Shown in pieces: positions 26,613-29,763 of a stretch of 64,000 bases of DNA. Origin of the DNA: Chitinophagales bacterium. Lineage in GTDB: Bacteria; Bacteroidota; Bacteroidia; Chitinophagales; LD1. Each line of letters begins with the position of its first letter. The first letter of the stretch is position 1. The stretch is taken from assembly GCA_016786765.1 (NCBI GenBank), contig JAEUUZ010000048.1:62001-126000 (forward strand), given 5' to 3'. The translations under genes and the position numbers were made by a program. Below the pieces are notes generated by a model. It was not told where the DNA came from and did not search any database. It saw only the letters and a list, made by a program, of their open reading frames with translations.

Positions 26613-27800
26613 ATGAAAAACGTATTGCTCGCTTGTCGAAATCTTATTCTTGTTGCCTTTTTGGCTGCCCCTACTTTTGTGTCGGCAGCTGAATTTCAGG
26701 TATCCGATTCTTGTAAAATCAGCTTATTGACTTGTTCACCCGGTAACGAATTGTATAGCTGTTTTGGGCATAGCGGCATTCGTGTAAACGACCCGTTAGA
26801 ACGGGTTGATATTGTATTTAACTATGGAACATTTGATTTTGAACGACCGGGTTTTTATGTGAATTTTTGTCGTGGTATTCTTATTTATTCGTTGGGAGTA
26901 GATCAGTATTATGATTTTGAGAACCAGTACATCTATGAGCAGCGTGGGCTTTCAGAGCAAATTTTAAATTTAACAACTGAACAAAAACAAGCCATCGTTG
27001 AGTTTCTGCTAACTAATGCACAACGCGAAAATCGAGACTACCGTTATGATTTTTTGTTAGATAACTGCGCCACCAGAATTCGTGATGTATTTGAAAAACA
27101 CTTAGGTAGTAAGTTAGCTTTTCATACGGAGAAATGGGACACCACAAAAACTTTCCGTTATTTAATCGATGAGTATTCCTGGTTTAAACGCTGGGAAAGT
27201 TTTGGTATGAATTTACTGATTGGCTTACCGGTAGATAAACCTACAACGCCTCGCCAGCAGATGTTTCTGCCAAATTATTTACGCGATGGTTTTACAACTG
27301 CAACAGTAAATGGGAATGAACCATTTGTAACAGCAACTCGTGAAATCTTACCTGCACCCAATTTTGATAAATCTGCAAATTGGACGTCACCGGAATGGCT
27401 ATTTGCCATTATTTTAGGCTTACTTATGCTACTCACATTTGCAGAAATACGATTCCATTTTCACGTAAAAGTTGTTGACTTTATTTTGTTCTTCACCACT
27501 GGCTTATTTGGTCTATTATTTCTGACCTTATGGCTCTTCACTCAACATTGGACAACAGCTTGGAATCTGAATTTGCTTTGGGCTTTGCCAACACATCTTT
27601 TGCTTGCCTTTGCCATTTTGTTTAATGGATTGTATCCAAAATTGAAGCAAATTCTTTTCATTGCATGGATTGTAGAAATTGTTTTTTTAACGCTCCATTT
27701 TGTTTTACCTCAACCCTTTCAAATTGGGATGATATTGATTAACGCTATGCTGGTGACTCGATTATTTCGCCTGTATTGGAAGGCAAAATCATTGGAATAA
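26613..27800 (+). CDS. DUF4105 membrane protein (possible lipoprotein N-acyltransferase, Lnb-like)
   Basis: A 395-residue protein: signal peptide (about 1-25), a periplasmic DUF4105 domain (about 35-230), then four or five membrane segments (about 263-390). The domain shows CFGHSGIRV with His53 and LLDNCATRIRD with Cys152, which look like a Cys/His catalytic pair. As I recall, a DUF4105-containing protein of Bacteroides, Lnb, adds the N-linked acyl chain to outer-membrane lipoproteins, and most Bacteroidota lack Lnt. Treat that link as tentative: the domain is clear but the reaction is inferred. Last gene of the penicillin acylase operon. Confidence 0.85.
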   Translation: MKNVLLACRNLILVAFLAAPTFVSAAEFQVSDSCKISLLTCSPGNELYSCFGHSGIRVNDPLERVDIVFNYGTFDFERPGFYVNFCRGILIYSLGVDQYYDFENQYIYEQRGLSEQILNLTTEQKQAIVEFLLTNAQRENRDYRYDFLLDNCATRIRDVFEKHLGSKLAFHTEKWDTTKTFRYLIDEYSWFKRWESFGMNLLIGLPVDKPTTPRQQMFLPNYLRDGFTTATVNGNEPFVTATREILPAPNFDKSANWTSPEWLFAIILGLLMLLTFAEIRFHFHVKVVDFILFFTTGLFGLLFLTLWLFTQHWTTAWNLNLLWALPTHLLLAFAILFNGLYPKLKQILFIAWIVEIVFLTLHFVLPQPFQIGMILINAMLVTRLFRLYWKAKSLE

Positions 27801-27820: not shown

Positions 27821-27850
27821 TTTGAAATATAAAAGTGTTACTTAACTTCG
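27821..27850 (+). promoter_or_regulatory. Candidate promoter of the cysteine leader and cysE-cysM operon
   Basis: TTTG at 27821-27824 (-33) and TAACTTCG at 27843-27850 (-7, one mismatch to TAnnTTTG) are separated by 18 bases, close to the usual Bacteroidota spacing. The expected transcription start is about 27854-27857, on top of the leader ATG at 27855. If correct, the leader peptide has almost no 5' untranslated region. Confidence 0.45.
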
Positions 27851-27854
27851 ATAT

Positions 27855-27923
27855 ATGATTTCCACAAACCTTAATTCTTGTAATATTTGCTGCTGTACCT
27901 ATTACCCCGAGGGCTGTTGGTGA
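27855..27923 (+). CDS. Cysteine-rich leader peptide of a putative cysE-cysM attenuator
   Basis: A 22-residue open frame ATG...TGA beginning MISTNLNSCNICCCTYY and ending PEGCW. Cys codons occupy positions 9, 12, 13, 14 and 21: three different-frame-free TGT/TGC codons in a row plus two more. Five Cys in 22 residues is far above chance and the peptide sits just upstream of two cysteine-biosynthesis genes. Its tail contains GAGGGCT (27909-27915), complementary to the 5' arm of the following terminator. The peptide itself probably has no function beyond making ribosomes pause when charged tRNA-Cys is scarce. Role is inferred; the reading frame is read directly. Confidence 0.8.
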   Translation: MISTNLNSCNICCCTYYPEGCW

Positions 27924-27980
27924 ATCATTTGAGTTTAATAATTGAATAAATGAGCCCTTCAGCAATGGAGGGCTTTTTTA
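27909..27980 (+). promoter_or_regulatory. Alternative antiterminator/terminator fold (cysteine attenuator)
   Basis: GAGGGCT occurs twice: 27909-27915 inside the leader and 27968-27974 in the terminator. Both can pair with AGCCCTT at 27953-27959, so the two hairpins exclude each other. A ribosome stalled at Cys codons 12-14 (27888-27896) would leave 27909-27915 free to pair and block the terminator. A ribosome that reaches the stop at 27921 would cover it and let the terminator form. Confidence 0.75.
27953..27979 (+). terminator. Rho-independent terminator in front of cysE (attenuator)
   Basis: Eight-pair stem AGCCCTTC (27953-27960) with GGAGGGCT (27967-27974), including one T-G wobble, six-base loop AGCAAT, then six T from 27974. 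It points into cysE and ends only 11 bp before its ATG, so it is placed to control entry to the operon and not to end the DUF4105 transcript, whose stop is 150 bp away. Confidence 0.85.
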
Positions 27981-27990
27981 ATGTATATAT

Positions 27991-28827
27991 ATGAGTAATA
28001 TCGCATTATTTGAGAAAATTAAAGTGTTCAACAATGAGCACAAAGAGTATATTCCATCGAAGCAAGAAATTGAATTGTTTGCCGATGAACTGCTCGATTT
28101 TTTGTTTCCACTTCGCGCTCGATACAGTAATTCTGCTCCGTTTTCTGATTTGAAGTATGAATTACTGTTTAAGAAGCTAGAATTATTGCTTGCCCCTTTT
28201 GCAGAAAAGAACAACTTTAATGCTGCAGCGCTTTCAACAGCATTTTTTCACAACCTTTCACCCGTATTTGATTTATTATTATTGGATGCTGAAGCCATTC
28301 AACGTTTCGATCCGGCTGCAAATTCAATTGAAGAGGTAATTACAGCCTATCCCGGATTTTATGCGGTTTCTTTATACCGTATATCGCATATTCTTTATAC
28401 CTTGGGAATCCCAACGATTCCCCGCATTATTTCAGAGCATGCACACAGTAAAACCGGCATTGATATTCACCCGGGTGCAACCATTGGTAAGTCGTTTTTC
28501 ATAGACCATGGCACAGGTGTGGTAATTGGGGAAACAACCTTAATTGGCGATAATGTGAAGATCTACCAAGGGGTAACATTAGGAGCATTGCAAGTGTCGA
28601 AAGCGCAAGCGCAAAAGAAGCGTCACCCTACTATTGAAGACAATGTGATGATTTATTCAGGGGCTACAATTTTGGGCGGAGATACTTTAATTGGACACGA
28701 TAGTGTAATTGGAGGAAATGTTTGGCTTACGGCCGGAGTGCCCTCATTTTCTTTAGTATTCGCTACACACGAAGTGAAGGTAAGAAACAGTAAAGAATTT
28801 GTTGAACCAATTGATTTTGTTATTTAA
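27991..28827 (+). CDS. cysE: Serine O-acetyltransferase
   Basis: A 278-residue enzyme making O-acetylserine from serine and acetyl-CoA. The N-terminal helical domain (1-140) leads to left-handed beta-helix hexapeptide repeats (about 150-265; DIHPGATIGKSFFIDHGTGVVIGETTLIG). The catalytic His residues are in HPGA and DHGTG. The loop ALQVSKAQAQKKRHPTIEDNV is typical. The ATG at 27991 is chosen because an upstream ATG at 27981 runs into a stop after five codons. Expression is likely gated by the leader and terminator just upstream. Followed after 24 bp by the cysteine synthase that uses its product. Confidence 0.95.
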   Translation: MSNIALFEKIKVFNNEHKEYIPSKQEIELFADELLDFLFPLRARYSNSAPFSDLKYELLFKKLELLLAPFAEKNNFNAAALSTAFFHNLSPVFDLLLLDAEAIQRFDPAANSIEEVITAYPGFYAVSLYRISHILYTLGIPTIPRIISEHAHSKTGIDIHPGATIGKSFFIDHGTGVVIGETTLIGDNVKIYQGVTLGALQVSKAQAQKKRHPTIEDNVMIYSGATILGGDTLIGHDSVIGGNVWLTAGVPSFSLVFATHEVKVRNSKEFVEPIDFVI

Positions 28828-28851: not shown

Positions 28852-29763
28852 ATGAAAGCGAACAACATTCTACAAACCATTGGCAACACGCCACACGTAA
28901 AATTGAACCGATTGTACGGCAGTGATAGCGAAGTATACGTTAAGCTCGAAAAACAAAACCCGGGAGCATCTATCAAAGATCGTATCGCTTTAGCGATGAT
29001 CGAAGATGCAGAAGCTAAAGGGCTTTTGAAACCGGACTCGGTGATTATTGAACCAACGTCAGGGAATACAGGCATTGGATTGGCAATTGTTGCTGCGGTA
29101 AAAGGGTACAAACTAATATTAGTTATGCCTGAATCAATGAGTATTGAACGCAGACGGTTGATGGCTGTTTACGGTGCGCAATTAGAGCTTACTCCGCGCG
29201 AAAAAGGAATGAAAGGGGCTATTGAAAAAGCCAACGAACTAGCTGCAAACACATCAAACTCATGGATTCCGCAACAGTTCTCGAACCCTGCAAACATAGA
29301 TATTCACAGAAGAACTACTGCGCAAGAAATTATTAACGATTTCCCTGAAGGATTAGATTATTTAATCACAGGTGTTGGAACCGGAGGACACATTTCCGGT
29401 GTTGCTGAAGTACTTAAAGCAAAGTTTCCTTCACTTAAAGTATTTGCCGTTGAACCGGCTGCTTCGCCTGTAATAAGTGGCGGACAACCGGCTCCACACC
29501 CAATTCAAGGGATTGGCGCAGGCTTTATTCCCGATAATTTAAAAAGAGAACTCTTAGATGGTGTAATTACTGTAACTAAAGAGGAAGCGTTTGAATATGC
29601 GCAACGAATTGCTAGAGAAGAAGGCATTTTTGTGGGTATTTCATCAGGAGCATCTTTGGCCGCTGTAGCCAAAAAGCTGGCTGAAGTGCCTAAAGGTAGT
29701 CGTGTACTTACGTTTGCTTATGATACAGGAGAACGCTACTTAAGTATTGAAGGATTGTTTTAA
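28852..29763 (+). CDS. cysM: O-acetylserine sulfhydrylase (cysteine synthase)
   Basis: A 303-residue fold-type II PLP enzyme making cysteine from O-acetylserine and sulfide. The PLP lysine is Lys42 (GASIKDR). The PTSGNTG loop binds substrate and GTGGHISG binds the PLP phosphate. I use the symbol cysM because of the short form and the [17 protein letters not shown] region, but cysK is an equally valid name for function. Co-transcribed with cysE and closed by a strong terminator at 29793-29821. Confidence 0.93.

Follow-up and report, generated by a model that had tools for sequence, protein, structure and literature searches.

A putative cysteine-sensing transcription attenuator upstream of cysE-cysK in Bacteroidota

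Does a short open reading frame with a run of Cys codons, lying together with an intrinsic terminator immediately ahead of two cysteine biosynthesis genes, adjust transcription of those genes to the supply of cysteine? This question is raised by a locus in the stretch of DNA analyzed here (the window, 64,000 nucleotides in full), which comes from a 3.6-Mb Bacteroidota genome.

The leader, the terminator, and the neighboring genes

The leader open reading frame occupies positions 27855 to 27923 of the plus strand (ATG at 27855 to 27857, TGA at 27921 to 27923) and has 22 codons that encode MISTNLNSCNICCCTYYPEGCW, with Cys at codons 9, 12, 13, 14, and 21; codons 12 to 14 (27888 to 27896) are the putative regulatory codons. 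Downstream of it lies a terminator with a stem of 10 pairs and a 4-nt loop (27952 to 27975) and a T run that extends to 27979, which leaves 11 nt between the terminator end and the cysE ATG at 27991. The sequence GAGGGCT is found twice, at 27909 to 27915 and at 27968 to 27974, and AGCCCTT at 27953 to 27959 can pair with either copy (with one G-U pair). These features had been described in a sequence-only reading of this DNA, which claimed a frame with Cys at these five codons, a strong terminator 11 bp before cysE, and a repeated GAGGGCT of which both copies pair with 27953 to 27959. The coordinates of the frame were reproduced exactly, the terminator was found again by an independent scan, and both copies of the repeat are where they had been placed. 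The predicted fold of the hairpin region (27934 to 27985) has an energy of -17.8 kcal/mol (z = -3.8), which is far more stable than that of shuffled sequences. Of 1056 short ATG frames in the window only 3 bear CCC, and neither of the two besides the leader has a terminator downstream; one of these is antisense to a large gene. A comparison of the leader peptide with NCBIfam matched no family.

The first structural gene, cysE (27991 to 28827, plus strand), encodes an EpsC-type serine O-acetyltransferase (NF041874, 155 bits with a cutoff of 150). The second gene begins 24 nt after cysE (28852 to 29763, plus strand) and encodes cysteine synthase A (TIGR01139, 423 bits with a cutoff of 351). Of the earlier label cysE-cysM, the first half therefore stands, with the EpsC type added, while the second gene is cysK rather than cysM. 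The gene 5' of the promoter, which ends at 27800, is lnb-like and would encode a lipoprotein N-acyltransferase (the NCBIfam match is below the cutoff, and the Pfam domains are above it). As a separate observation, the only match to PF01507 (the PAPS-reductase domain) in the window's own genome is a weak one in a 452-amino-acid frame, and most relatives have a clear cysD or cysH. It is possible that the source organism does not assimilate sulfate and makes its cysteine from reduced sulfur.

Conservation of the leader and of its alternative pairings

The window's GTDB family was represented by 30 genomes, of which 24 have a cysE of the window's type; one of these loci is cut by a contig end, leaving 23 that are testable. 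In 22 of these 23 loci, 19 of which have CCC, a short frame that opens with ATG and contains consecutive Cys codons is present 110 to 220 nt upstream of cysE, and an intrinsic terminator follows the leader in all family leader loci except one, which has an assembly gap. The sole testable family member with cysE and no recognizable Cys-run leader (L011, from genome G001) has an unrelated inverted repeat upstream. The leader peptide in the same genus is MITSSSCLSCFCCCSDSGRAL, and further examples in the family are MKFIQIICCCCCSPCKGE, MKNIPTCCCCCCGATGGGILFLLA, and MPFFVHACCCCCANLAKGTK; the Cys run is common to the family peptides, which otherwise share little sequence. The Cys codons of the leaders are 111 TGT and 25 TGC, and this use of both codons suggests that decoding, and not the nucleotide sequence, is the conserved property. 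The same layout is also found outside the family, in Runella, in Flavobacterium suaedae, in a Chitinophagaceae metagenome-assembled genome (MAG), and in other Bacteroidota lineages. Across the sampled Bacteroidota, a short ATG frame with CCC lies upstream of cysE in 36 of 194 cases on the sense strand, compared with 1 of 194 on the antisense strand and none of 191 when the adjoining 450 nt further upstream are taken instead. The majority of cysE genes in this sample have no such leader.

A probable promoter lies directly upstream of the leader on the plus strand (27822 to 27850). It consists of TTG at 27822 to 27824 (position -33) and, after an 18-nt spacer, of TAACTTCG at 27843 to 27850, a -7 box that contains TANNTTNG, and it predicts a +1 at ~27855. 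The -7 box of Bacteroidota is TANNTTTG, located at -12 to -5 (PMC9723704). In the family, TANNTTNG ends 4 to 10 nt upstream of the leader ATG in 20 of 22 members, versus 2.3% of background 25-nt windows. The spacing is exactly 4 nt in 9 members, among which the predicted +1 is the A of the ATG itself, and the box in the window also ends 4 nt upstream of the ATG. Beyond the family, the spacing between box and ATG is often larger (16 to 20 nt), or no box is seen. From the position of this box we infer the start site, and the leader frame of the family is probably leaderless or nearly so. Leaderless mRNAs make up 5.5% of those examined in F. psychrophilum (PMC9723704), which would make a leaderless Cys leader unusual.

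Almost all loci have, 3' of the Cys run, a G-rich segment that is complementary to the terminator's 5' arm. When this segment was paired with the terminator of its own locus, the mean energy over 26 loci was -12.9 kcal/mol, versus -10.6 kcal/mol with the terminators of other loci, and the own pairing was equaled in 0 of 20,000 permutations (2 of 20,000 with 18 representatives), figures that are inflated by the relatedness of the loci. Beside these inflated figures there are separate cases in which both partners have changed: CCCTGTG terminators are matched by GCAGCGTG or GCAGTGTG segments in L017 and L025, the terminator AATCCCGC of L042 is accompanied by the segment GGGGTT, and in L061 the match between segment and terminator is near-perfect over 13 bp. 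The pairing is weak in L016, L022, L067, and L118. In the window itself the antiterminator is short, with 7 bp and an inner 6-bp helix, and it is not the optimal fold predicted for 27900 to 27962 (z = -0.95), although it is present in the centroid. In the terminator stem, 7 of 10 pairs have two-sided changes across 23 loci versus 3.6 by shuffling, and 96.3% of cells are paired, a fraction that is partly built in because the sequences were picked as hairpins. MAFFT misaligned the variable spacers of the leader regions. The beginning of the leader can likewise pair with the region 3' of the Cys run, and it does so better with the partner from its own locus than with swapped ones (1 of 20,000 permutations as good, 4 of 20,000 with representatives only, both inflated in the same way). 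The conservation of Cys codons and of paired segments in relatives, which the sequence-only reading had proposed as the check on its claim, is clear from the 22 of 23 loci and from the comparison of own with swapped pairings.

Based on these comparisons, four segments can be assigned on the plus strand of the window. Segment 1, the candidate protector arm (27855 to 27866), pairs with the segment 2 region at 27914 to 27928, which also ties up part of GAGGGCT; it is assigned from the own-versus-swapped permutation. The core of segment 2, GAGGGCT at 27909 to 27915, is the putative 5' arm of the antiterminator and is assigned from its pairing with the 5' arm of the terminator and from ribosome geometry. 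Segment 3 (27952 to 27961), assigned from the terminator scan and the pairing test, would be shared between the 3' side of the antiterminator and the 5' arm of the terminator. Segment 4 with the U tract (27966 to 27979) is the 3' arm of the terminator, as indicated by the terminator scan and by stem covariation. The sequences support a four-segment layout that includes a trp-like 1:2 protector hairpin, and antiterminator and terminator are predicted to be mutually exclusive.

Other Cys-run leaders in Bacteroidota

Leaders of a second class precede cysE without an intrinsic terminator (L168, L171 to L173, L178, L182, L184, L203, L212, L222, and L225). All of these belong to another Bacteroidota family, except that L222 and L225 are listed apart. 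In these leaders the Cys run closes the frame or comes shortly before its end (e.g., ...AAICCCCC followed by the stop codon), often with a C/U-rich stretch next to it. A role of base pairing in concealing the cysE start in these leaders was unsupported, since 554 of 5,000 swaps were as good. In L117, a frame encoding MNYCCITLNCCGVYIS lies ~77 nt before cysE, immediately 5' of it, with a ATTACCTT...AAGGTAAT inverted repeat; this is possibly another arrangement.

Cys-run frames also occur upstream of cysH in two members of the window's family, L270 (MNASCKACCVCCCCC) and L272 (MNLTAAAAKCCCICCCCC). These frames stop within the Cys run or close to it, and no intrinsic terminator was seen with them; downstream of the leaders (L270, 1245 to 1330; L272, 1222 to 1290) lies a conserved inverted repeat, AAAGCCG...CGGCTTT, that lacks a U tract. 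In L324 (G145:C16:169617-171200), MSCLMYCCCCC followed by a stop codon is encoded upstream of a gene for the substrate-binding protein of a sulfate ABC transporter, in a genome (G145) that also has the cysE leader L184. No Cys-run leader was found close upstream of cysS in 25 loci of the window's family.

Two wider pattern searches were set aside. Matches in the window's own genome to a Cys run with GGG and CCYTTC looked, beyond cysE, like chance or coding sequence, and across the phylum this pattern was too noisy, with one more cysE leader found (G306). For four Cys codons followed by TAA, the two own-genome matches that were inspected lie inside open frames or antisense to them, and among the matches retrieved from relatives most lack a leader that starts with ATG; the one clear case is before the sulfate-binding protein gene. 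There is perhaps an even chance that leaders with Cys codons are in widespread use among Bacteroidota as the device of a sulfur assimilation regulon (cysE-cysK, cysH, and sulfate uptake) in two mechanistic classes, one leaderless with an antiterminator and a terminator and the other ended by the Cys run, without a terminator, and working in another way.

Proposed mechanism, alternatives, and known systems

We consider it very likely that cysE-cysK are controlled by ribosome-mediated transcription attenuation at this element, with charged tRNA-Cys as the signal sensed. The function of the operon fits this reading, and poly-Cys frames are present before cysH and a sulfate-binding protein gene as well. 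Transcription would begin on the leader AUG or a few nucleotides from it, and a ribosome would trail the RNA polymerase, translating the leader. With ample Cys-tRNA, the ribosome would clear the Cys run, sit at the stop codon, and mask GAGGGCT at 27909 to 27915; segment 3 would then pair with segment 4, and transcription would terminate at ~27979. With scarce Cys-tRNA, the ribosome would stall at Cys12 to Cys14 with its front edge at ~27906, and the free GAGGGCT could pair with 27953 to 27959 before segment 4 is made, resulting in read-through into cysE-cysK. If the leader were not translated, the 1:2 hairpin would hide segment 2 and termination would be favored.

The spacing of the loci was compared with a bacterial ribosome footprint that reaches 18 nt upstream and 12 nt downstream of the first base in the A-site codon. 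For a ribosome whose A site holds the last Cys codon of the run, the antiterminator core begins -2 to +11 nt relative to the front edge, and all 25 loci leave at least 75% of it free. For a ribosome that has arrived at the stop codon, masking of the segment reaches at least 75% in 16 of the 25 and is only partial in the other 9. In the window the core is fully free at the Cys run and fully masked at the stop codon, in agreement with the earlier claim that a pause at Cys12 to Cys14 frees 27909 and that a ribosome at the stop codon covers it. A stall at Cys21, which is at the end of segment 2, would mask segment 2 rather than free it. The frame, the terminator, the alternative pairings that co-vary in relatives, and this geometry are all present in the DNA, and from them we infer that the leader is translated and that the attenuator responds to cysteine. 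The original proposal of a cysteine-sensing transcription attenuator is well supported by the conserved leader, the co-varying pairings, and the geometry.

Cysteine control could instead be translational or Rho dependent, with the poly-Cys frame mattering and the terminator not being the switch. Cys-run leaders can act without a terminator, as indicated by the second-class leaders and by L270 and L272, and the leaders of mycobacterial cys operons have a short Cys-run frame and no conserved terminator (Seliverstov et al. 2005, PMC1262725). In the window's family, however, a terminator and a matched antiterminator are present and co-vary, which makes this explanation improbable for the locus studied here. 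Direct sensing of cysteine, S-adenosylmethionine, or tRNA by a riboswitch aptamer or a T-box, with the frame being incidental, is more improbable still. A 5' region with a terminator ahead of a biosynthetic operon fits riboswitches generally, but an Rfam 15 scan of the element gave no family above the gathering threshold and nothing beyond chance, alignment A2 showed no conserved block resembling an aptamer, and the conserved parts are pairing segments and Cys codons in an open frame whose third bases vary. Small Cys-rich peptides of metal-binding or modified kinds do exist, but that the frame encodes one, with the hairpin terminating transcription in the usual way, is the least credible explanation of all, given that the peptides share little besides the Cys run, that the distance from the frame to the pairing segment is near-constant, and that the frame has the same orientation as cysE.

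If the attenuator reading is true, these Bacteroidota can sense cysteine without a regulator protein. A terminator timed by ribosomes requires that ribosomes keep pace with RNA polymerase, so that its conservation would be evidence from genomes that transcription and translation are coupled in Bacteroidota, where translation starts without Shine-Dalgarno pairing. The timing of ribosome and polymerase may be made possible by a leader frame that opens the transcript or nearly does so. Attenuation by ribosome stalling is classical, and forms of it for cysteine are known or predicted in mycobacteria, where terminators are lacking, and for cysS in Rhodobacterales; in Bacteroidota a cysteine version has, as far as we found, not previously been described. 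Our literature search, which covered main texts and mostly open papers, gave no report of the element, and it may have been listed earlier in a table.

The element resembles the E. coli trp and his attenuators in having end-product codons in the leader, a 1:2 protector, a 2:3 antiterminator, a 3:4 terminator, and the corresponding ribosome geometry. It differs from them in that the amino acid is cysteine, the host is a member of the Bacteroidota without Shine-Dalgarno initiation, the leader is apparently leaderless, and the sequences are unrelated. Canestrari et al. 2020 (cited by PMC13236596) reportedly describe leaderless polycysteine uORFs in mycobacteria. The leader studied here is similar to the mycobacterial polycysteine uORFs in being a short Cys-run frame before cys genes, and from its -7 box it is predicted to be leaderless as well. 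It differs in that it has an intrinsic terminator and a predicted antiterminator, belongs to another phylum, and has no evident peptide likeness to them beyond the Cys run. Within Bacteroidota, leader-peptide attenuation of amino acid operons has been proposed for F. psychrophilum in a paper whose main text names neither cysteine nor cysE (PMC9723704), and Bacteroid-trp RNA (RF01692) is a candidate cis-regulatory leader (PMC2864571). The present element is likewise a candidate cis-regulatory leader in this phylum. The uORFC-8-2 motif of Rhodobacterales cysS leaders combines tandem Cys codons with an intrinsic terminator and is predicted to act by ribosome-mediated attenuation (PMC8632094). The window's leader has the same combination of tandem Cys codons and intrinsic terminator, but it precedes cysE-cysK, not cysS.
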